A DNA stretch of 64,000 nt. Origin: Methanosarcina flavescens (GTDB lineage: Archaea > Halobacteriota > Methanosarcinia > Methanosarcinales > Methanosarcinaceae). Positions 50,729 through 63,855 of this stretch are shown piece by piece. Both the position numbers and the translations under genes were made by a program. The DNA is taken from positions 2,666,001-2,730,000 of the forward strand of contig NZ_CP032683.1 in assembly GCF_001304615.2 (NCBI RefSeq), read 5' to 3'. Positions within the stretch are counted from its first letter, which is position 1; every line of letters begins with the position of its first letter. The notes beneath the pieces were generated by a model. That model did no database searches, was not told where the DNA came from, and worked only from the letters and a program-made list of their open reading frames with translations.

Positions 50729-51053
50729 AATAACCTTGAATCCAGTTTTAAAATAACGGCTATCAAAAAATTTCTGAAAAGTCTGCTTCAATCTCGCTAC
50801 ATCTTTTTTCTCTAGTCTACTTATTCTTAAACCCTGAGTCTATATAGTCTCAAGAATAAAAGCTGACTTTACCCATCTTGAGGTAAAAAGACATCAATAA
50901 CAAAATTATAAAAATCAGAAGATCTCGTAAAGTCCAATTTTGCCGCAAAGAGATGTTATATCCTAAAGGGTATATAGATTATTCTTTTTAGTGAAAACCT
51001 GGTTACTAGCTGTAGACTTTAAACAATTGGCGTTAAACTGTTCTATATAGAAC

Positions 51054-51143
51054 TTCCGGCCAAGCTCTCTAACTGTTTTTTGTAGCTCATTTTAGATCTG
51101 TAAAGATTCTCTTATCTCTGATAGTTAGAGAAATTGGCCGGAA
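51054..51143 (+). promoter_or_regulatory. Long inverted repeat upstream of precursor 1
   Basis: 21-base arms (TTCCGGCCAAGCTCTCTAACT and its near-complement ending TTGGCCGGAA) pair with two mismatches around a 48-base spacer. Immediately upstream is the perfect 14-bp palindrome GTTCTATATAGAAC (51040-51053). The equivalent structure is at 55942-56030 and 60591-60680. It lies some 100 bases upstream of the nearest TATA-like box, so it is more likely a DNA-binding site than part of the precursor mRNA. Confidence 0.6.
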
Positions 51144-51221
51144 AACTTATAAAGGATTATTTAATAACTGAGTAAGTGGGAATGTTGCAGGATTCAGTAG
51201 AGTTTGAGGGCAATGCTGAAC

Positions 51222-51341
51222 CCTGCATACCCGAAGGCATGAAGTATATAACTTTCTAACTATTTTAAAGTTTGCTTCTTGCCTGCATACCCGAAGGCAT
51301 GAAGTATATAACTTTCTAACTATTTTAAAGTTTGCTTCTTG
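51222..51341 (+). repeat. Duplicated 60-bp promoter-like unit, cluster 1
   Basis: Two exact tandem 60-bp units, each containing a purine-rich BRE-like stretch and TATATAA (51245-51251 and 51305-51311). From the second box the expected start of transcription is near 51335, giving a leader of about 40 bases before the TTG start. Cluster 3 has the same duplication; cluster 2 has one diverged unit. Confidence 0.75.
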
Positions 51342-51373
51342 CCTCTTGAATTAAAGTAAAGAGGTGAAATAAA

Positions 51374-52126
51374 TTGAGATTAAATGACGAAGTTAGAAAA
51401 ATTAGCGGGCTTTTCATGATAATGCTCGTTGTAGGTATGATACTGGTTACGCCTGCATTGGCATGCCCTCCTAATGTACAGACTGAGCAAGACAGTTCTA
51501 ACACATTAACAGATTGTCCAGCTTGTTCGTTAAGTTCTGAGTATGCTAATTATTCAGATGCTAAAGTGGAAACCATAGAACTATCCGAAAAAGAACAGAA
51601 AAAAGCCACAGCAGAAGCATTATCAGATGAAAGTGTCTCAAAGTTGAGAGATGAATTGATAAAATTAGGGTATGTTTCCTCTATTGAAGAAATCTATACA
51701 ATGAAGTCAACTACAACAACAGAAAATGAAACAGTAACAACTACAATTGTAACGATGCCATTTAATGGTACAAATAATGATTCAGCTGTTATCGTATTTG
51801 CTTCCAATGAACTTGGAAATGCTGCAATGGCAGGTGTAGCAAATAACGGTGAGCTAACAGTATTGCAGTACGATTCTGTCACGGATCAAGTACAAATAAC
51901 GGGACTATCTTGTGATTTCTGCATGTGGGCTGTCGGTGAAATATGTGATCTCATTTCAGCTTACGGATGCAAACAAGTATGTACCATAATAGCTACAAGA
52001 ATTCCACATCCAGCTTGGATAGCTTTCACAGGGGTTACTTGTTGGGCGCTATGTAGCTTTATTGTAAGTTATAAGGCATGCAATTGGGCAACTAGCGAAG
52101 TATGTGAAGGAGCGGGGCTATGTTAA
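51374..52126 (+). CDS. Halocin C8-like cysteine-rich peptide precursor 1
   Basis: 250 residues with a TTG start placed six bases after GAGGTGA. A basic N-terminus and signal peptide end at VTPALA-C31. A middle domain (about 32-175) carries CPAC and a Thr-rich segment. The C-terminal core (about 180-250) has ten cysteines at 180, 183, 191, 199, 203, 223, 227, 236, 244 and 250, ending GAGLC. As I recall it, mature halocin C8 is a 76-residue peptide with ten cysteines, a CxxC start, similar end spacing and a RAGLC end, released from a precursor whose N-terminal part gives immunity. The resemblance is strong, so I infer an archaeocin or similar secreted peptide. The mature boundary is unknown. 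Confidence 0.82.
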   Translation: MRLNDEVRKISGLFMIMLVVGMILVTPALACPPNVQTEQDSSNTLTDCPACSLSSEYANYSDAKVETIELSEKEQKKATAEALSDESVSKLRDELIKLGYVSSIEEIYTMKSTTTTENETVTTTIVTMPFNGTNNDSAVIVFASNELGNAAMAGVANNGELTVLQYDSVTDQVQITGLSCDFCMWAVGEICDLISAYGCKQVCTIIATRIPHPAWIAFTGVTCWALCSFIVSYKACNWATSEVCEGAGLC

Positions 52127-52413
52127 TGTTAAACCCTCTTTTTACTTTTTTTATTTTTTATGTGGCCTCATTAGCTACTCGCGTAATAATAATGACTTAT
52201 TACCCACAATATACTTATTTTGCGCATGTGCTTTCTTCGCTTTTGATTTCCATTGGCATGGCTTTTTCGATTCCATTTATGAAACCAATTATTTCGCGTC
52301 TTCCAAAACTCAGTCCAAAAATGAATCGGTGGTTTAAAATGGGATTTGTTATTCTGGTTTTTATAACAACTTTTTTGATATCTTATTATAAATATATGCC
52401 TCAAAGTCAATAA
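52126..52413 (+). CDS. Small membrane protein coupled to precursor 1 (candidate immunity)
   Basis: 95 residues. Its ATG at 52126 shares a base with the precursor stop (TAATG), so it should be translated by re-initiation. About three membrane helices; the conserved segment YYPQYTYFAHVLSSLLISIG recurs almost unchanged in the cluster 3 counterpart. The C-terminus is basic. It has no known domain. Position, size and one-to-one pairing with the peptide gene suggest a self-protection protein; a role in export or processing is the alternative. Confidence 0.75.
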   Translation: MLNPLFTFFIFYVASLATRVIIMTYYPQYTYFAHVLSSLLISIGMAFSIPFMKPIISRLPKLSPKMNRWFKMGFVILVFITTFLISYYKYMPQSQ

Positions 52414-52492
52414 CGAAGGCATATAACCGATTATAATCGTTTAAATACTCATTAAAACTTAGCGAATAAAATTGAGCAAGAGAGGCCCTAAG

Positions 52493-53494
52493 ATGTTAAA
52501 AGAACTCATAATTATGATTTTTCTCCTCAATATAATGGCAGGTGGATGCTTGGAAGATACAAACGATAAACCAACCGTTGAAGAAATAATGTATCATACA
52601 CAGGATAAATATGAGTCTATTGACGTATTCAAGGCGACAATGATTTCTACAACAAATTTTCAAGGAGAAGAAGTAGCTCAAGAAATGGATTTTTTGTTTG
52701 AGAAACCAAACAAATATAAATGTGTTAATAAAGTCGAAAATTTCACAACAATCTCTAACGGTGAAGTTGTCTGGATGTACCATTCGGACAAGGATGAAGT
52801 AACAGTAGAAGATCTAGAAGATTCTAAAAGAATGCCAAGTTTCGATTATGGCATGATTTTTAAAGACTTAACCATAATCAATGATATGAGCTTGATTGGG
52901 GATGAAAAATTATCTGGTAAGTCTTGTTATGTAATTGAGGCTATACCAAAAAATAAGACTGCCATAATATCCCAGAATATATGGATAGATAAGGAAAGCT
53001 GGATTCCAATTAGAATCGATAGAGATTTTGGAGGTTATAAATCGAGGGTAGAATACATAAACATATCTGTAAACACCGATGTCAGTGATAATGAGTTTGA
53101 ATTTATTCTACCAGCAGATGCGAAAATTGTAAAGCCAAATACATCGCTCCCAAACCAAATTAGCATGGAAGAAGCTCAGGAAAGTGCAAATTTTACAATA
53201 TTGAAACCTTCTTATTCTGCTGGTTATCAATTCAATGGTGCTACAATTGGCGAATATGCGGATAGCGTCTCTTTATCTTATGCTAAAGGAAGAAGTCTTT
53301 TAACTATTGTTCAAACTCGGTCCAAGTATCCTGTACCAAATGCCGAAAATGTTACAATTGGAGAATTAAAAGGAGAAATTACAGAGACTTTTGGTAATAA
53401 AATGTTAAGGTATAACGATGGCAATATTTACGTCATAATTGCAGGCACAGTAAGTGAAGAAGAACTTGTAAAAATAGCCGAGTCCATGACGTGA
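52493..53494 (+). CDS. LolA-like lipoprotein (DUF4367-type C-terminus), cluster 1
   Basis: 333 residues from the ATG at 52493 after GAGAGG (the frame is open 21 bases further). The lipobox is NIMAGGCLED. The first two thirds resemble the LolA/LppX fold of outer-membrane-lipoprotein-sorting family proteins (DVFKATMISTTNFQGEEVAQ; QNIWIDKESWIPIRIDRDFG; VSDNEFEFILPADAKI). The last 120 residues form a DUF4367-like domain (SAGYQFNGATIGEYADSVSL). Such proteins bind lipid or hydrophobic ligands. Here it may shield cells from, or carry, the hydrophobic peptide. A paralogue is at 61967. Confidence 0.8.
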   Translation: MLKELIIMIFLLNIMAGGCLEDTNDKPTVEEIMYHTQDKYESIDVFKATMISTTNFQGEEVAQEMDFLFEKPNKYKCVNKVENFTTISNGEVVWMYHSDKDEVTVEDLEDSKRMPSFDYGMIFKDLTIINDMSLIGDEKLSGKSCYVIEAIPKNKTAIISQNIWIDKESWIPIRIDRDFGGYKSRVEYINISVNTDVSDNEFEFILPADAKIVKPNTSLPNQISMEEAQESANFTILKPSYSAGYQFNGATIGEYADSVSLSYAKGRSLLTIVQTRSKYPVPNAENVTIGELKGEITETFGNKMLRYNDGNIYVIIAGTVSEEELVKIAESMT

Positions 53495-53604
53495 CCACTC
53501 ATGGCAATTATTTCTACCATTTGATTGGAATATAAAAATATCAATGTATTAAAGTTGTATTTTTTAGTTCGAAACGAAAAAATATACACTTGTTAGGAAT
53601 CTTT

Positions 53605-54642
53605 ATGAAAAGCAGTTCTCACACAATAACTGTGCTAACCATTATTCATTTATCTCTTATTTTTATACCAGTAGTTGGTGCAGATCCGGTTACAATCCAG
53701 TATTTCCATCAAAAAGGTTGTCATGATTGTGAAATAACTGATCCTATTGTCAATCGAATAGAAGCTCAATATGAGAACATGGTTATAACAAGAATTGAAA
53801 CCAGTACTGTTGATGGTTTCAACCGATGGAATAAATATGGTTTTCTTGAAGTCCCGGCTATTGTGATAAACAATGAAACAAAACTTCCCAAAGAAGAAAT
53901 TACTGAAGAAAAGCTAAAAACTTTAATCGATGAATATCTTGCGGCAGAGGAAAATATTACTGAATATACTACAGAAGAGGCAACGAGAAAAGAACAGGAA
54001 AACGAGTATATAAACACAAACCTGAATTTGCCATTTGCTTATTCACTAGGTCTTTTTGCAGGTTTTTCACCCTGCCTGATGGCCATACTGGGATTTCTTT
54101 TAAGTTTTACTGCAGGGACGAGCAATAGTGCGAAAAGCGGTATGATACGTGCAACGGTGTTTGGATTGGGACTGGTAGGTTCTTACTTAGTATTGGGCCT
54201 GTGTTTGCTCTCATTCCAAAAATCAATTCCCGATTTGGAAAGCTTTTCTTTTGTTACAGGCATTGTTGTAATTCTTATCGGGTTAAACCTTCTGGGGATC
54301 TTAAAATCACCTGTCGTTCTGGATAATTATTTTCGAAGTTCTGCCAGGAAATATGCAGGTACTCTGGGTGGAGTTTTCTTTCTTGGGATACTGTTTTCGT
54401 TTGTAAAAGTTCCCTGCACTGCTCCAATGCTCCTTGTACTTCTCAACAAGACTATTACAAACGGGACTGTTAATGATCTGGCTCTATTGCTTGCTTTCAG
54501 CGCCGGAGTATTGACACCTTTTATTGGAGTTGGCATGATAGGAGGCTATACTCTATCTAAACAAATTCGTTCATACAGAATATACCTGAAAAAAATCAGT
54601 GGATTTGTGCTTATATTACTTGGTTTATGGATAATGTTTTAA
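53605..54642 (+). CDS. Thioredoxin-CcdA fusion, thiol-disulfide membrane protein
   Basis: 345 residues from ATG 53605. A signal segment is followed by an extracytoplasmic thioredoxin-like domain with YFHQKGCHDCEITDP (CxxC) and the cis-Pro site EVPAIVI. A CcdA/DsbD-type membrane domain of about six helices follows, with its paired cysteines in AGFSPCLMAIL and FVKVPCTAPMLL. These proteins move electrons across the membrane to thiol-disulfide partners. It lies directly after the ten-cysteine peptide genes, and I infer it forms or isomerises their disulfides. Cytochrome c maturation is the alternative, but no cytochrome genes are nearby. Confidence 0.88.
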   Translation: MKSSSHTITVLTIIHLSLIFIPVVGADPVTIQYFHQKGCHDCEITDPIVNRIEAQYENMVITRIETSTVDGFNRWNKYGFLEVPAIVINNETKLPKEEITEEKLKTLIDEYLAAEENITEYTTEEATRKEQENEYINTNLNLPFAYSLGLFAGFSPCLMAILGFLLSFTAGTSNSAKSGMIRATVFGLGLVGSYLVLGLCLLSFQKSIPDLESFSFVTGIVVILIGLNLLGILKSPVVLDNYFRSSARKYAGTLGGVFFLGILFSFVKVPCTAPMLLVLLNKTITNGTVNDLALLLAFSAGVLTPFIGVGMIGGYTLSKQIRSYRIYLKKISGFVLILLGLWIMF

Positions 54643-54757: not shown

Positions 54758-55429
54758 ATGGATAATCTGAACTTAAATACTCTATTATTTGACCCAAATT
54801 CATTTTTCAGAGAAAAACTAGGAAATGAAGTTAGTCTTAAGTATCCTCTATTGATAATACTTGTGATGGCTGTATTAACAGTAAGTTCAAGTATTGTGGT
54901 TATGAATAACCTTCAAGATTCGTTTTCTTCTGGCATGGATTCATCTATGTCTTCTTCAGTAATGTCAAGTATCATTGGAGGCGTTGCCATCGGGGGTTTT
55001 ATTGGAACATTTTTATATTGGGTTATACTGGCTGGAATCTTATATTCAATATCTTATGTGTTTAAATCGAAGGGTTCTTTCAAGAGAACGTTAGAATTTA
55101 CAGGTTATGGTTTTGTGCCACAAGTATTCAGCAGTTTAGTAGGTTTAATTGTAATGTATATCATGTTATCTTCAACCGATTTATCATCACAGGACTCAAT
55201 ATTTATGGGCCAGGGTGTAGAGCAGATGTTCTCAAATAATCCTCTGTTTTATACATCACAAATAATTGGAATTTTATGTCTCTTACTGTCTGGCTATATA
55301 TGGATATTTGCAATCTTGCATGCACGAAATATGTCATACAAAAACGCCGCTATTACTGTTGGTATTCCCATAGGTCTGGCCATTGTTATCCAGATATATT
55401 CTTTCCTGTTTACTTCCGGGAGCTTGTAA
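54758..55429 (+). CDS. Yip1-family membrane protein
   Basis: 223 residues with five membrane segments. The Yip1-like signature starts LLFDPNSFFREKLG and continues to GSFKRTLEFTGYGFVPQVFS and IWIFAILHARNMSYKNA. Prokaryotic Yip1 proteins often sit with transporters or secretion genes, but their function is not defined. Same strand as the upstream genes, 115 bases after the thioredoxin-CcdA gene with its own AT-rich spacer, so membership in cluster 1 is uncertain. GGTGTAAGAG precedes the ATG. Confidence 0.8.
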   Translation: MDNLNLNTLLFDPNSFFREKLGNEVSLKYPLLIILVMAVLTVSSSIVVMNNLQDSFSSGMDSSMSSSVMSSIIGGVAIGGFIGTFLYWVILAGILYSISYVFKSKGSFKRTLEFTGYGFVPQVFSSLVGLIVMYIMLSSTDLSSQDSIFMGQGVEQMFSNNPLFYTSQIIGILCLLLSGYIWIFAILHARNMSYKNAAITVGIPIGLAIVIQIYSFLFTSGSL

Positions 55430-55689
55430 TTCTGTAAAAAAAAGATCAGGAATGTTATATCAAATCTGAGAGGGCATACATCTCGAGCTGATTGAAATGC
55501 ACACATAGTGGCAGATTCCTTGTAAAACCCCTCTCTATTATAGTGATCACTAATATATAAATGAAAATCCAAAGAAAAACCGAAATTAAATCCCTCTTAT
55601 ATTTTTTTTCAGAGGTTATATAATATTTTCGATTTTATCCTGATGATGAGAATGAAAAACCTTTACAATCTTTTTTTGAAAAACTTATC

Positions 55690-56290
55690 TTTTTTCTCCA
55701 ATCTACTTATTTTTAAAACCCGAATCTATATAGTCCCAAGAATAAAAACTGACTTTACCCACCTTGCGGTAAAAAGATATAATGACAAAATTATAAAAAT
55801 CAAAAGATCTCGTAAAGTCCGACATTGCCATAGAAAACTACAAACTCTCAAAAAACATACTAAACATTCTTTTTTAGCAAAAAGCCTGGTTACTGATTGT
55901 AGACATTTAAATAATTGACATCGAACTGCTCTATATATAACTTCCGGCCAATTTCTCTAACTGTTTTTGTAGCTCATTTTAGAGCTGTAAAGATTCTCTG
56001 ATCTCTGATAGTTAGAGAGCTTGGCCGGAAAACTTATAAAGAATTCTCTAAAACTGAATAAGTGGGAATGTTGTGCAAGGTCCAGCAGAGTTTGAGAGCA
56101 ATTCTGAACCCTGCACGCCCGAAGGCGAGAAATAGATCACTTTAAAGCTATTTTAAAGTTTGTTTCTTGCCTCTTGAATGAAAGTAAAGAGGTGAAATAA
56201 ATTGGAATTAAATAACAAAATTAGAAAAATCAGCGGGCTTTTCATGATGATGCTCGTTGTAAGTATGGTACTGGTTACGCCTACGTTGGC
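55690..56290 (+). repeat. Leader cassette, copy 2 (diverged)
   Basis: This copy aligns with the cassettes at 50769 and 60308 over the upstream spacer, the long inverted repeat (55942-56030), a single promoter-like unit (from about 56107), the GAGGTGA ribosome site and the signal-peptide codons. It differs at many more positions than copies 1 and 3 differ from each other. A short ORF at 55643-55918 falls inside it and is not conserved in the other copies, so I do not call it a gene. The spacer 55430-55689 has nothing recognisable. Confidence 0.85.
55942..56030 (+). promoter_or_regulatory. Long inverted repeat upstream of precursor 2
   Basis: The arms are TTCCGGCCAATTTCTCTAACT and the near-complement ending TTGGCCGGAA. 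The two mismatched positions are the same as in copies 1 and 3 but with the arm variants exchanged (TT left, GC right here; GC left, TT right there), while the loop orientation is unchanged. Confidence 0.6.
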
Positions 56291-56816
56291 ATGTCCAGCT
56301 GGAACAAATTGCGGGAGTGATTCGGTTCCCGCAAACCCGATACAGCTAACAGGAGCGGATAAAGACAAAATGCTGAGTACGGCTTTAAGCGATAGTAATG
56401 TCAAAAAATATCAAGAGCAATTGATAAATGAAGGATATACACAAAATGGCAGTACAGCACTTGTTATACCAGTGGAAAATAAAAACGATAGCTCAATAAC
56501 TGAGATCAAATTTGCTGCAATAAGTTTCAAAAATGACAAGTCTCAAGAACCCAACAAAACTATACTATATAGCTACAATCCACAAACCAAAACAAGCACA
56601 ACTGTAGTGATAAATAGTTTACTAAGCGATTGTGTTTTCAACTTATCGATTTGTTTGGGGAGTGCTGCTACTTGCGTAATAATTTGTGGTCCGCTTTTGG
56701 CACCAAATCCAGCCACGCCATTAGAGGTAAAACTTTGTTTGGCATGCATACCAATTGGTGTCGGAGCCTGCGGACTTGCTTATACAGCATGCCACAAATA
56801 CTATTATGGAGAGTAA
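56202..56816 (+). CDS. Cysteine-rich peptide precursor 2 (different core, same leader)
   Basis: 204 residues, TTG start after GAGGTGA. The signal peptide is nearly the same as in precursors 1 and 3 (RKISGLFMMMLVVSMVLVTP; TLA-C31). The middle region (about 50-140) is only loosely related. The C-terminal core has eight cysteines at 144, 151, 158, 162, 179, 182, 190 and 197, is hydrophobic and glycine/alanine-rich, and ends HKYYYGE. It is not halocin C8-like in spacing. I infer a second type of secreted disulfide-rich peptide using the same expression and export leader. The name 'bacteriocin-like' rests on context. Confidence 0.7.
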   Translation: MELNNKIRKISGLFMMMLVVSMVLVTPTLACPAGTNCGSDSVPANPIQLTGADKDKMLSTALSDSNVKKYQEQLINEGYTQNGSTALVIPVENKNDSSITEIKFAAISFKNDKSQEPNKTILYSYNPQTKTSTTVVINSLLSDCVFNLSICLGSAATCVIICGPLLAPNPATPLEVKLCLACIPIGVGACGLAYTACHKYYYGE

Positions 56817-56858: not shown

Positions 56859-57239
56859 ATGAGAGTGATCATAAAAAGGAATTCAAAAAAATTCCTTTTT
56901 TTGCTTTTTTTATCAATTTTTGCCATCATAGGAGGTACTATAACAACATTAATGTCCCCAACAAAAATATCCTTAAATGGATTGTACCTTATATTGGCTG
57001 GGATTGGACTTTTTTTCCTTACGCTTTCAGCCTCTACAAAAGATCAAAAATCATTTGAACGATGGTCAATTTTTAGTGGTATTTTTTACGGTATTGCACT
57101 TCTTTGTGGTAGTTTAATTTCATTTAGATATGGCCAAACCGTAACTGCAAAGATAATTTTGCTATGTGGGGTAATTGTTATTTCATTGACGATATCTTCG
57201 ATCGTTTCGGTCTTAAGGAGGGGAAAACAGCATGTATAA
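56859..57239 (+). CDS. Four-helix membrane protein of cluster 2 (candidate immunity)
   Basis: 126 residues with four membrane helices (FLLFLSIFAIIGGTITTLM; LNGLYLILAGIGLFFLTLSA; IFSGIFYGIALLCGSLISF; IILLCGVIVISLTISSIVSV). GAGGAG precedes the ATG. It shows no similarity to the small membrane proteins of clusters 1 and 3, in parallel with the different peptide core. It overlaps the next gene by 8 bases. Function inferred from position only. Confidence 0.7.
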   Translation: MRVIIKRNSKKFLFLLFLSIFAIIGGTITTLMSPTKISLNGLYLILAGIGLFFLTLSASTKDQKSFERWSIFSGIFYGIALLCGSLISFRYGQTVTAKIILLCGVIVISLTISSIVSVLRRGKQHV

Positions 57240-58098
57240 CAATGCAAGAAAGAGGTTTGGGGTTATACTCATACTTATACTATTTGTGATCATGGCATTT
57301 GAACTTGGTTGTATTGGAAAAGCACAAACTGATTATAATCTAAAATATAATTTTCATGTAGGTGATAGACTTGTTTACAATTGCACATACCTCACAAGTG
57401 ATACATATTATACAGGATATATCACAAATAATACAAATTATACAGGACCAATTCGTATTGAAATGTTAGTTACAGATTTTGATGGAAAGAATATAACCTC
57501 AAAAATGACATCAACGAAAACAACAAATGAAAACACTACTGAATCTTCATATGTCACAATTATGGACGTTTATGGAAACCTGATAAGATCAGATCCCAAA
57601 GATAAAATTATACCTGAGGTACAACCGGAACTGCCAAATCTGCTAAAGTATCCAGAAAAAGAAACTCAAGAAGGTAAACCATGGACAATTGTATTCAAAA
57701 ATAACATAAATGAAAACCCTTTATTAAAAGATGAATTCGAAGGTACAGGAAACTACACTTTTTTAGGTACAAAAACAATATCGACAAAAGCCGGTAAATT
57801 TGAATGTATTGGTATCAAATCAGAAACAAATTTTGTTTCAAACGCAAAAAGAGACTATAGTAATACAACCATTCATTATACAACAGTAGGCAATATCTCT
57901 GGAGTAAATTGGATAGATTTAAATGGTGGATTCTCAGTTAAATCCAATTACATTATGGATAAAACTTTGACAATTGATTTATCTGGACTGGCCAATAATT
58001 CTGAATATCAGAAAGTCGGAATTGAAAATGTTAGTATCAATAGCCCGACAATTGAAACGCATATAATTAATGAACTTGAAAGCGTCCAGAAAGGATGA
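57232..58098 (+). CDS. Cluster 2 lipoprotein of unknown function
   Basis: 288 residues. Lipoprotein signal FVIMAFELGCIGKA; the rest is Thr/Asn-rich and beta-type (YNLKYNFHVGDRLVYNCTYL; STKAGKFECIGIKSET), with many glycosylation sequons. It occupies the place of the LolA-like lipoproteins of the other clusters but I cannot show homology. Overlap with the upstream gene (57232-57239) implies one operon. Confidence 0.75.
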   Translation: MYNNARKRFGVILILILFVIMAFELGCIGKAQTDYNLKYNFHVGDRLVYNCTYLTSDTYYTGYITNNTNYTGPIRIEMLVTDFDGKNITSKMTSTKTTNENTTESSYVTIMDVYGNLIRSDPKDKIIPEVQPELPNLLKYPEKETQEGKPWTIVFKNNINENPLLKDEFEGTGNYTFLGTKTISTKAGKFECIGIKSETNFVSNAKRDYSNTTIHYTTVGNISGVNWIDLNGGFSVKSNYIMDKTLTIDLSGLANNSEYQKVGIENVSINSPTIETHIINELESVQKG

Positions 58099-60125: not shown

Positions 60126-60304
60126 GGCTCTTCGCTATTTTGTATGGGTTGAAAATAATTACTTAGTTAGAAAGTAGCCAGATCAAATGGACAAATATCA
60201 AGCTTGAATGCGATTTACAACAACTACTATTTCTAAATTTTAGAGGCGCAGCTTTAACATTCAGAAGCTGAATGAAAGTTACCCACTCGAAACAGCGAAG
60301 AGCC
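60126..60304. mobile_element. 179-bp MITE-like element with ~24-bp inverted repeats
   Basis: The ends GGCTCTTCGCTATTTTGTAT and the complement of the right end (GGCTCTTCGCTGTTTCGAGT) both continue into TGGGT and match for most of 24 bases. GGCTCTTCG-type ends are typical of ISL3-related elements. No target duplication can be seen: the left side is IS630 remnant, and the right side is the start of leader cassette copy 3. The element marks the exact junction of the duplicated cassette. Confidence 0.75.
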
Positions 60305-60590
60305 AATAATTTCTGAAAAGTCTGCTTCAATCTCGCTACATCTTTTTTCTCTAGTCTACTTATTCTTAAACCCTGAGTCTATATAGTCTCAAGAATAAAA
60401 GCTGACTTTACCCATCTTGAGGTAAAGACATCAATAACAAAATTATAAAAATCAGAAGATCTCGTAAAGTCCAATTTTGCCGCAAAGAGATGTTATATCC
60501 TAAAGGGTATATAGATTATTCTTTTTAGTGAAAACCTGGTTACTAGCTGTAGACTTTAAACAATTGGCGTTAAACTGTTCTATATAGAAC

Positions 60591-60680
60591 TTCCGGCCAA
60601 GCTCTCTGACTGTTTTTTGTAGCTCATTTTAGATCTGTAAAGATTCTCTTATCTCTGATAGTTAGAGAAATTGGCCGGAA
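60591..60680 (+). promoter_or_regulatory. Long inverted repeat upstream of precursor 3
   Basis: Same arms as at 51054 (TTCCGGCCAAGCTCTCT...) with one extra change (A to G at the inner end of the left arm), preceded by the palindrome GTTCTATATAGAAC. Confidence 0.6.
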
Positions 60681-60757
60681 AACTTATAAAGGATTATTTA
60701 AAACTGAGTAAGTGGGAATATTGCAGGATTCAGTAGAGTTTGAGGGCAATGCTGAAC

Positions 60758-60877
60758 CCTGCATACCCGAAGGCATGAAGTATATAACTTTCTAACTATT
60801 TTAAAGTTTGCTTCTTGCCTGCATACCCGAAGGCATGAAGTATATAACTTTCTAACTATTTTAAAGTTTGCTTCTTG
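60758..60877 (+). repeat. Duplicated 60-bp promoter-like unit, cluster 3
   Basis: Two exact 60-bp units with TATATAA boxes at about 60781 and 60841, identical in arrangement to cluster 1. Confidence 0.75.
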
Positions 60878-60909
60878 CCTCTTGAATTAAAGTAAAGAGG
60901 TGAAATAAA

Positions 60910-61647
60910 TTGAGATTAAATGACGAAGTTAGAAAAATTAGCGGGCTTTTCATGATAATGCTCGTTGTAGGTATGATACTGGTTACGCCTGCGATGGCGT
61001 GTCCGGCTGGGAAAGATTGCCCTAATGTATCTCAAAACTGCCCAGCGTGCGGATATTTAAGTGCTCCAAAATCAGATGCTGAAGTGAACATGATAGAGAT
61101 ATCAAAAGAAAAAGAAAAAAAAATTATAGCAGAAGCATTATCTGATGAAAGAATCTCAAAGTTAAACAGTGAGCTTAAAAAACTAGGCTACACTCCTTCT
61201 ACTAGTGAATTCAATGCATCGATGCTAACTACAACAACGACAAACGAAACAGTCACAAGTTCGATTGTAATAATGCCATTTGACAACGGGCGTAAAAATG
61301 AATCTGCTGTCGCAGTATTTACTTCCAATGAACATGGAAGTGCTGCCATAGCAGCTATGCGAAATAACAGTGAGGTCACATTACTAGAGTACGATTCTGT
61401 TAAGGGTACCTTCCAAGTAAGTTCGGTGGATTGTGACTTCTGTATGTGGGCTGTTGATAAAATATGTGGTTACCTCGCAGAGGGAGGATGCGCTTATGCA
61501 TGTGCGCAACTAGCTACAAAGATTCCGCATCCAGCTTGGATGGCTGTTTCAGCGGCTTTTTGCTGGGTAATATGTGACTTCGTTCTAGAAAATTATGCAT
61601 GCAGTTGGAGCGCAACTACAGTTTGTCAAGAAGTGGGGTTGTGCTAG
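60910..61647 (+). CDS. Halocin C8-like cysteine-rich peptide precursor 3
   Basis: 245 residues, TTG start after GAGGTGA. The first 28 residues are identical to precursor 1. The middle region has CPAGKDC and CPAC motifs, a charged helix (EISKEKEKKIIAEALSDERI) and a Thr-rich segment. The core has cysteines at 175, 178, 186, 194, 198, 218, 222, 231, 239 and 245, exactly the spacing of precursor 1, and ends EVGLC. The central IPHPAW and the DFCMWAV start are shared with precursor 1, while other core positions vary. Interpretation as for precursor 1: a secreted disulfide-rich antimicrobial-type peptide. Confidence 0.82.
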   Translation: MRLNDEVRKISGLFMIMLVVGMILVTPAMACPAGKDCPNVSQNCPACGYLSAPKSDAEVNMIEISKEKEKKIIAEALSDERISKLNSELKKLGYTPSTSEFNASMLTTTTTNETVTSSIVIMPFDNGRKNESAVAVFTSNEHGSAAIAAMRNNSEVTLLEYDSVKGTFQVSSVDCDFCMWAVDKICGYLAEGGCAYACAQLATKIPHPAWMAVSAAFCWVICDFVLENYACSWSATTVCQEVGLC

Positions 61648-61943
61648 TGAAGCCTATTATTACTTCTATTATTACTTTTTTTCTTTTTTTAATAATGTCA
61701 TCAGTTATTCGTATCACAATAATGTCTTATTATCCACAATATACCTATTTTGCGCACGTACTTTCTTCGTTTTTGATTGCTATAGGTTTTGCATTTTCAA
61801 TCCCTTTCATATTTATGAAATATCTCTCACTTCCCCCTAATTATAGCCCAAAGACGAAGAAAAGGATCCAAATTGGGTTTACTATTTTGGTTTTTGTATC
61901 ATCATTTTTAGGATCCTATTTTGGAAATATGCCAAAAATATAA
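61647..61943 (+). CDS. Small membrane protein coupled to precursor 3 (candidate immunity)
   Basis: 98 residues from a GTG at 61647 that shares a base with the precursor stop (TAGTG), the same coupling as TAATG in cluster 1. Membrane segments ITSIITFFLFLIMSS and HVLSSFLIAIGFAFSIPF; the motif YYPQYTYFAHVLSS is shared with the cluster 1 protein. An upstream in-frame ATG at 61599, inside the precursor, is disfavoured because the homologue lacks that part. Confidence 0.75.
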   Translation: MKPIITSIITFFLFLIMSSVIRITIMSYYPQYTYFAHVLSSFLIAIGFAFSIPFIFMKYLSLPPNYSPKTKKRIQIGFTILVFVSSFLGSYFGNMPKI

Positions 61944-61966: not shown

Positions 61967-62965
61967 ATGTTAAAAAGAATCATAATTATTCTTTTCTTCT
62001 TTATAGTTGTAGGCGGATGTTTAGAAGAGACAAACAATTTATTAAACGCTGAAAAAATAATAAATAATTCTCAGGAAAGATACGGATCTATTGACGTATT
62101 TAAGTATACAGTAATTTCCACAACAGAGTTTCAAGGAGAAGAAGTAACTCAAAAAATAGATTTTTTGTTTAAGAAGCCAAACAAGTATAAGTGCATTTAT
62201 CAATCAAAGAACTTAACTACAGTTTCTAATGGAACAGTTACCTGGATATACGATTTAACTAAAGGTGAAGTAACAGTAAAACATTTAGAAGGCTATAAAG
62301 GAACACCAGATTTTGATTATGGCACTCTTCTTAAAGACTTACTTAAAACTAATAATGTGAAATTAATTGGAGAAAAGGAACTATTTGGAAAATCATGTTA
62401 TATAATTGAAGCTATACCAAAAAATAAAACTTCTATAATATCTCAAGACATGTGGGTAGATAAAGAAAGCTTGATTCCAGTTAGAATCGATACAAATTAT
62501 GGAGATTATAAATCAAGGGTAGAATACACAAATATATTCGTAAGCACTGATGTTAACGACAATGAATTTGAGTTTACTCTACCAGAAGGCGCAAAAATTA
62601 TAGAACCGAGCACAACACTTCCCAACCAAGTCAATATAGAAGAAGCTCAGAAGAGCGTAAATTTTACAATATTGAAACCTTCTTATTGTGCTGGGTACCA
62701 ATTCGCAGGGGTGACAGTACTTGAATATGGAAATAGTGCTTATTTAACCTATTCTAAAGAAGGAAACGTGTTAACTATTTTTCAAACTCCATCCAAGAGT
62801 TCAGTATCAAATGTAGGAAATATTACAATCGAAAATTTAAAAGGGAAAACAATCGAAATATTTGACAATACAATTATCAAATATAACTATGGGAATACAT
62901 ATATTATAATTTCAGGTCCAGTAAGTGAACAAGAGCTTATAAAAATAGCAGAGTCTTTGGGATAA
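61967..62965 (+). CDS. LolA-like lipoprotein, cluster 3
   Basis: 332 residues, paralogue of the 52493 product along its full length. Lipobox FIVVGGCLEE; then DVFKYTVISTTEFQGEEVTQ, DMWVDKESLIPVRIDTNYGD, VNDNEFEFTLPEGAKI and a DUF4367-like end (CAGYQFAGVTVLEYGNSAYL). GGAGAT precedes the ATG. Immediately downstream is a decayed fragment of the same family. Confidence 0.8.
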   Translation: MLKRIIIILFFFIVVGGCLEETNNLLNAEKIINNSQERYGSIDVFKYTVISTTEFQGEEVTQKIDFLFKKPNKYKCIYQSKNLTTVSNGTVTWIYDLTKGEVTVKHLEGYKGTPDFDYGTLLKDLLKTNNVKLIGEKELFGKSCYIIEAIPKNKTSIISQDMWVDKESLIPVRIDTNYGDYKSRVEYTNIFVSTDVNDNEFEFTLPEGAKIIEPSTTLPNQVNIEEAQKSVNFTILKPSYCAGYQFAGVTVLEYGNSAYLTYSKEGNVLTIFQTPSKSSVSNVGNITIENLKGKTIEIFDNTIIKYNYGNTYIIISGPVSEQELIKIAESLG

Positions 62966-63025: not shown

Positions 63026-63214
63026 AATGAAACATATAGTCATCATATTCTATGGATTGATCCCAAAATCTGGATGCCGTTAAAGATCCAAAGTTATAAC
63101 GGTGACAAACTTCTGATGACACTAGAATATGAGAATTATTCTATAAATTCAGGCATAAAAGATACTGAATTTGAATTTAAACCTCCAGAAGGTACTGAGG
63201 TGATTAATATATGA
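63026..63214 (+). pseudogene. 5'-truncated LolA-like lipoprotein fragment
   Basis: The open frame without a start gives HHILWIDPKIWMPLKIQSYN, then LMTLEYENYSINSGIKDTEF and EFKPPEGTEVINI, the C-terminal part of the LolA-like domain (compare WIDKESWIPIRIDRDF... in cluster 1). Its TGA overlaps the ATG of the next gene (ATGA at 63211-63214), so it was once an operon member. The N-terminal two thirds are gone. Confidence 0.75.
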
Positions 63215-63855
63215 ATATAGACCATATCGTTAAAGAAGAATTATTACGTTCACTTCCAGTACTATTTGTTAGTTTTTTAATAATCGGGCTACTGATTAGG
63301 GAAGGATATATTCCGTTAGAGATGTCAAGGGTATTTATTCTTGCCCTCTTTGTTACAGCTGTCCATTTCTTTTTTATGGTCTGGTATAGAAAAAAGGAAC
63401 AGATTGATAAGAATTCTATCTTTTATATAATTGACCATATTTTGAGCTCAAGGTTTTATGAAGAAAAAACTGCAAAATCCCATGATAAAGAAATCAGCAT
63501 CTTTTCCTCGCTTCGAAAAAATGTGGGTCTTCTAATTATTACGCTGTTCCTGTATATTGCTTACCTCTACGCATCTCTAACTTATCACATAGATCAGATC
63601 TTCTGGATCTTAGTTCTATTATTTGTTGGGGGCACGCTATCAAAAATCATATATGGTGAAAGGAAAGAAGATCAAAACAATCCTGTGAGATTGCTGTTTT
63701 TCTATGTAATCGCATGCGTTTTTATTTTTGTACGTTACCTTGTACTTGATTATCCTATTCTTCCTGTTTTAAAAGGAAGTATAATTCTTGGAATATTACT
63801 GATATTTTTGGTTTTAGGAATAAAATGGTCGCAGCGTAAACAAAACTCGATTTAA
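63211..63855 (+). CDS. Multi-pass membrane protein of cluster 3
   Basis: 214 residues with about six membrane helices (LPVLFVSFLIIGLLIREGYI; VFILALFVTAVHFFFMVWY; VGLLIITLFLYIAYLYASL; LLFFYVIACVFIFVRYLVL; IILGILLIFLVLGIKW). A short charged internal loop carries KEEQID-type residues. Family not recognised. It overlaps the decayed lipoprotein fragment by 4 bases, and is followed by another lipoprotein start, indicating the operon continues. Confidence 0.7.
   Translation: MNIDHIVKEELLRSLPVLFVSFLIIGLLIREGYIPLEMSRVFILALFVTAVHFFFMVWYRKKEQIDKNSIFYIIDHILSSRFYEEKTAKSHDKEISIFSSLRKNVGLLIITLFLYIAYLYASLTYHIDQIFWILVLLFVGGTLSKIIYGERKEDQNNPVRLLFFYVIACVFIFVRYLVLDYPILPVLKGSIILGILLIFLVLGIKWSQRKQNSI

Follow-up and report, generated by a model that had tools for sequence, protein, structure and literature searches.

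A thioredoxin-CcdA fusion linked to halocin-C8-like peptide precursors in Methanosarcina is probably their dedicated disulfide-handling enzyme

Introduction

Membrane proteins of the CcdA/DsbD family pass electrons from the cytoplasm to thiol proteins outside the cell, for reduction or isomerisation. DsbD proper has an N-terminal Ig-like alpha domain and a C-terminal gamma thioredoxin domain. Dedicated thiol-disulfide enzymes also occur in the clusters of sublancin, with BdbB, and of other bacterial disulfide-bonded bacteriocins. In Methanosarcina, CcmG and CcdA (MA4254-MA4255) are described as reducing apo-cytochrome disulfides (PMC9084895), and the precursor of halocin C8 is reported to be cleaved to yield an active C-terminal fragment (PMC12893001).

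Here we describe a gene of Methanosarcina flavescens, hereafter Trx-CcdA, that lies among peptide genes. Like the DsbD/CcdA carriers (PF02683, PF13386; CcdA structure 5vkv), its product has a membrane domain with two conserved cysteines and a predicted outside CxxC thioredoxin domain; unlike them, the thioredoxin is N-terminal and fused directly, without the DsbD alpha domain, and the gene is tied to Cys-rich precursors. It shares the combination of a thioredoxin-like protein and CcdA with the system described in PMC9084895, which is however encoded by two separate genes and whose likely counterpart in the present genome is a separate pair (L001). The neighbouring peptides resemble halocin C8 (TIGR04449) in having a leader and a long pro-region and, in two of three cores, in a ten-Cys domain, but their hosts are methanogens, the leader is common to many unlike Cys-rich cores, and a redox partner lies in the cluster. 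As with sublancin, a thiol-disulfide enzyme would be dedicated to the bacteriocin cluster; the bacterial enzymes are DsbB-kind oxidases, whereas here it is a CcdA-type carrier.

Results

Gene order and peptide precursors

The source genome is one 3.28 Mb contig, of which a stretch of 64,000 nucleotides (the window) was analysed. All genes listed here lie on the plus strand; that Trx-CcdA and the peptide cluster run in one direction had been noted in the initial annotation. Precursor 1 is followed by a small membrane protein, a LolA-like lipoprotein, Trx-CcdA and a Yip1 protein, then by precursor 2 with a membrane protein and a lipoprotein, by putative transposase-like ORFs, and by cluster 3, which continues beyond the window with another lipoprotein:

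51374-52126 (+), precursor 1, 250 aa, TTG start; leader, pro-region and 10-Cys halocin-C8-like core (aa 180-250; TIGR04449)
52120-52413 (+), small membrane protein, candidate immunity gene; shares 7 bp with the end of precursor 1
52472-53494 (+), LolA-like/DUF4367 lipoprotein
53605-54642 (+), Trx-CcdA fusion; signal about 1-25, thioredoxin about 28-110, linker about 112-140, CcdA/DsbD membrane domain 142-344
54758-55429 (+), Yip1 membrane protein, candidate peptide-resistance part; weak YknW-family match (35 bits, cut-off 110)
56202-56816 (+), precursor 2, 204 aa; 8-Cys core unlike the others, same leader
56859-57239 (+), candidate immunity gene for membrane protein TM126, next to precursor 2 on its downstream side
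57232-58098 (+), secreted protein or lipoprotein after precursor 2, weak DUF3108-like match
60910-61647 (+), precursor 3, 245 aa; 10-Cys halocin-C8-like core (TIGR04449 at cut-off)
61599-61943 (+), small membrane protein after precursor 3 (limits of the longest open frame)
61967-62965 (+), LolA-like/DUF4367 lipoprotein of cluster 3
63211-63855 (+), membrane protein TM214, which in relatives often directly precedes Trx-CcdA

The position of the 52120-52413 gene and its retention where the precursor is deleted lead us to infer an immunity function. YknW, the family weakly matched by the Yip1 protein, is described in Bacillus as a component of a toxin-protection pump (PMC4887032). The last 90 residues of precursors 1, 2 and 3 contain 10, 8 and 10 cysteines, so the peptides had been rightly called ten-cysteine in two cases and wrongly in the third. 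Against the TIGR04449 cut-off of 24 bits, precursor 1 scored 23.0 (E 1.2e-4) with hmmscan of the whole protein and 25.4 in the genome search, and precursor 3 scored 24.0 and 26.4, while precursor 2 gave no TIGR04449 match; among 21 precursors, six matched at E <= 0.01 (best 1.6e-12). The window peptides are halocin-C8-like precursors by these profile matches, or share their leader, and are predicted to be antimicrobial. Structure comparison of precursor 1, whose model was built from 4 sequences and has low confidence before residue 61, gave no clear relative (best Foldseek E 0.33, best VIA-align Z 5.3), and we therefore claim no fold for it.

A non-coding block precedes all three precursors (50751-51373, 55637-56201 and 60290-60909). 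Clusters 1 and 3 agree at 610 of 620 aligned bases of this block (98.4%), whereas their precursor coding sequences after codon 30 are only 67% identical. The block also stands before intact and decayed precursors of other Methanosarcina, and may be a regulator, or an anchor of recombination or gene conversion for core swapping. It contains an imperfect inverted repeat (about 51050-51145 and 55938-56030) whose arms differ by two bases; these are exchanged between clusters 1 and 2, with the loop orientation kept. Precursors 1 and 3 are each preceded by two tandem copies of a 60-base unit with the TATA-like AAGTATATAACTTTC (51222-51341 and 60758-60877). When a shared upstream element was sought as a sign of co-regulation, it was found before the precursors; no repeat family found directly precedes Trx-CcdA, where the roughly 110 bp before the gene include, by eye, a TATA-like stretch about 70 bp from the ATG.

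A thioredoxin domain joined to a CcdA/DsbD membrane domain

Trx-CcdA encodes 345 aa, from an ATG at 53605 to a stop ending at 54642; an alternative TTG start at 53590, 15 bases upstream, would give 350 aa. The thioredoxin domain contains the motif CHDC (C39-H-D-C42) and a candidate cis-proline, P84, and the six-helix CcdA/DsbD domain contains C157 and C271, one in each half. All five residues are invariant in an alignment of 27 rows, and the invariance of the cysteines ruled out a chance or mis-called reading frame. Pfam matches to DsbD_TM (E 1.9e-10, 40.9 bits, cut-off 27.1) and DsbD_2 (E 2.2e-9) were above cut-off, and that to Thioredoxin_3 (E 1.1e-4) slightly below. A profile of the 27 relatives matched the archaeal thioredoxins 1fo5 and 1nho and the CcdA structure 5vkv in the PDB. 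In the AlphaFold model, residues 29-110 are thioredoxin-like with a pLDDT of about 80-85; the whole has a mean pLDDT of 68.4 and a pTM of 0.43, and the helical membrane half, which is of middling confidence, superposed on 5vkv in Foldseek with a TM-score by target of 0.61 but an E-value of only 4.9e-3. The protein is not DsbD proper, since its thioredoxin is N-terminal and its membrane domain stands at the end, and it reached 50.6 bits with NF001419 against a cut-off of 330.

Counted from the model, the loops predicted to lie inside hold 1, 4 and 3 Lys/Arg residues, and those outside 1 and 0. These charges, together with the N-terminal hydrophobic signal, put the thioredoxin domain outside in the predicted topology. 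Reading frame, Pfam matches, invariant cysteines and loop charges thus agree with the initial annotation, which had described an external CxxC thioredoxin fused to a CcdA/DsbD membrane domain. Its paired membrane Cys-Pro sites stand as two conserved cysteines, but the order is Pro-Cys (SPC, VPC).

Linkage to Cys-rich precursors in relatives

We surveyed 111 Methanosarcinaceae genomes and compared 27 places encoding the Trx-CcdA subfamily (54-100% identity) with 48 encoding distant relatives (about 22-42%). The count disregards 13 short fragment rows, merges two pieces of one gene in genome G088 and places a 42% relative in G027 with the distant group. A precursor match (E <= 1e-8) lay within 5 kb of the subfamily gene in 23 of 27 places, on the same strand in all 23 and upstream of the gene in 22, whereas no distant relative had one within 8 kb (0/48). 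Conversely, a subfamily member stood no more than 10 kb away from 34 of 35 such matches; the remaining match is a remnant in G075. Counted by genome, 21 had both genes, 2 Trx-CcdA only, 1 a precursor remnant only and 87 neither (n = 111; Fisher p 2.3e-19, uncorrected for kinship, the loci being related by descent). Four of the 27 subfamily places, including a second copy in the source genome, had no precursor within 8 kb.

Because the precursor profile was built from precursors at these loci, this count is partly circular, and we therefore also applied an independent rule not trained on them: a secreted ORF with at least 6 Cys in its last 90 aa. This rule marked 20 of 30 close loci, or 18 after removal of two false cases (L046, L047), against 1/11 distant and 4/20 random loci, all five of which were ferredoxin-like or spurious by eye. 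In a scan of named contigs, it matched at one of 33 distant loci (30% identity or less; L138), in a protein without a leader of the precursor kind.

In a tree, the subfamily separates from the distant group as a single clade (support 100/100). Methanomicrobiales rows are nested within it, as are the long-branched L061 and L129, whose placement is unsure. These Methanomicrobiales members, found on named contigs, are 41-48% identical, and a Cys-rich precursor stands at 3 of 11 such loci (L118, L119, L126). At L120, L121 and L131, a different secreted protein with some C-terminal Cys occurs, with a membrane protein before Trx-CcdA. This Methanoculleus secreted family (L120 7641-8591, L121 37-996, L131 7080-8177) gave no family match in Pfam or NCBIfam. 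Separately, a typical methanogen cluster, with precursor, small membrane protein, lipoprotein and a piece of Trx-CcdA, occurs on a contig that binning had assigned to candidate division WOR-3 (L130), reflecting either mis-binning or transfer.

Since in many methanogens Trx-CcdA occurs almost only beside Cys-rich halocin-like precursors, we conclude that it is probably the dedicated disulfide-handling enzyme of these neighbouring peptides. That the gene is dedicated to the peptides had been proposed from the window; neighbourhood, co-occurrence in relatives and co-decay (below) strongly support it, and the link proves far stronger than the window alone shows. Among the neighbours examined, no homologue lay beside cytochrome-biogenesis genes. 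As first noted, cluster 3 has no Trx-CcdA of its own inside the window, and none follows over a further ~18 kb, which is compatible with cluster 3 sharing this one.

Trx-CcdA tends to decay with the precursor

The state of the precursor, Trx-CcdA and small membrane genes was compared at 29 loci. Two of these stay outside the counts below: L052, which has an intact Trx-CcdA beside a variant precursor containing few Cys near its C-terminus, and L174, which yielded nothing. Where the precursor was intact, so was Trx-CcdA at 17 of 18 loci, the exception (L056) being frameshifted, but where the precursor was broken or absent, Trx-CcdA was intact at only 3 of 9 (L039, L043, L049; Fisher p 0.002); with the two copies linked to peptidase-inhibitor (I42) genes added (L046, L047), the comparison became 17/18 against 5/11 (p 0.006). 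These numbers are small and the loci related, and some were picked for gene fragments (L062, L063, L065) or for the upstream element (L172, L176). By contrast, 8 of the 9 loci without an intact precursor had kept one or more of the immunity-like membrane genes (smTM, TM214, TM126, Yip1) open, L063 and L176 showing an open small membrane gene beside the decayed precursor. In both of these the precursor has lost its middle and kept leader and tail (L063 downstream of 9724, minus strand; L176 11476-11634).

That Trx-CcdA tends to decay with the precursor while immunity-like membrane genes stay open argues for a role in making the peptide; such a pattern would be expected if protection falls to the membrane genes and production to Trx-CcdA. 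A role in immunity or resistance, in which the outside thioredoxin would reduce and so disarm the cell's own or incoming peptides, would suit the shared gene neighbourhood, the position of a membrane-held outside reductase and the reductive direction known for the family. We nevertheless consider it unlikely, as an immunity gene should outlive its toxin, although the sample behind this objection is small and partly selected.

Disulfide enzymes and the direction of electrons

DsbA (PF01323) and DsbB (PF02600) were found in none of the 111 Methanosarcinaceae genomes, VKOR in a single one, which has no precursor match, and Thioredoxin_4 was absent from the source genome. The search, which covered these four families, detected them in control genomes. 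The missing oxidants would suit oxidative folding, the function first proposed for this gene, in which the thioredoxin domain would oxidise the peptides and CcdA carry electrons inward. So would the valine that mostly precedes the cis-proline of the thioredoxin domain, a trait of DsbA. But Val-cisPro is not confined to oxidants, being found also in archaeal reducing thioredoxin-like proteins, and we know of no inward electron acceptor for CcdA. Known CcdA/DsbD proteins work outward, reducing outside proteins, and for this reason reduction or isomerisation is favoured; an oxidant role of this CcdA is unlikely, and we regard oxidative folding as unsupported and improbable. A review of archaeal thiols (PMC7278568) describes thioredoxin systems of M. 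acetivorans, and these could feed Trx-CcdA.

A second copy and cytochrome maturation

The only other close copy in the source genome lies about 470 kb away and is 74% identical (G000:C1:3194004-3195053; L047 9005-10057). It adjoins an I42-type peptidase-inhibitor gene, and an identical protein with the same neighbours occurs in G102. Elsewhere on the source chromosome stands the separate thioredoxin and CcdA pair L001, likely, to judge from its arrangement, the CcmG/CcdA-type pair of this genome. Trx-CcdA was rejected as the genome's cytochrome-maturation CcdA, L001 being the better fit. Deletion of ccmG and ccdA in M. acetivorans is reported to have left cytochrome c unaffected in reducing medium (PMC9084895), and such systems can thus be dispensable. 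A general outside thiol reductase, serving cytochromes, metal centres or redox defence and lying near peptide genes by chance, would explain why the second copy and its G102 counterpart are away from peptides and why two distant relatives inspected (L070, L074) have ordinary neighbourhoods, but it is the least probable reading in view of the linkage of 23/27 against 0/48, its recurrence in Methanomicrobiales and the presence of L001.

Discussion

Trx-CcdA combines a directly supported domain make-up, conserved redox cysteines, a thioredoxin placed outside by loop charge, near-exclusive linkage to precursors and membership of one clade. We think it fairly likely that it is a dedicated reductive or isomerising thiol-disulfide relay for secreted, multi-Cys, halocin-C8-like antimicrobial peptides. 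Weighing against this reading are the four subfamily places that lack a precursor, the Cys-rich precursors at just 3 of 11 Methanomicrobiales loci and the dispensability of ccmG and ccdA in M. acetivorans. In such a relay, the signal would export the precursor, whose many cysteines may mispair or form mixed disulfides outside. Cytoplasmic thioredoxin would reduce C157/C271, and the membrane domain would then reduce C39/C42 of the fused thioredoxin, which would break wrong disulfides, by reduction and isomerisation in the manner of DsbD and DsbC, until the native set forms. A protease would finally release the C-terminal core, and the small membrane proteins, perhaps together with the pro-region and the Yip1 protein, would protect the producer. 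A bolder proposal, that in strict anaerobes without recognisable DsbA, DsbB or VKOR (one exception in 111 genomes) Trx-CcdA is the only dedicated disulfide enzyme for multi-disulfide antimicrobial peptides, with CcdA oxidising or isomerisation doing all the work, seems to us doubtful.

Our literature search found no link between the halocin-like peptides of methanogens and either CcdA or thioredoxin, and a prior mention in work on archaeal peptides or toxins is possible. Both halves of the protein are of known kinds; as far as the literature was searched, what is new is their near-exclusive pairing with these precursors in genomes without the usual disulfide-making families. Trx-CcdA is thus a concrete candidate for the disulfide handling of secreted peptides in strict anaerobes in which the usual enzymes were not found. 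This redox partner also marks a set of methanogen peptide clusters with a common leader and very different Cys-rich cores, which can be found by way of Trx-CcdA.
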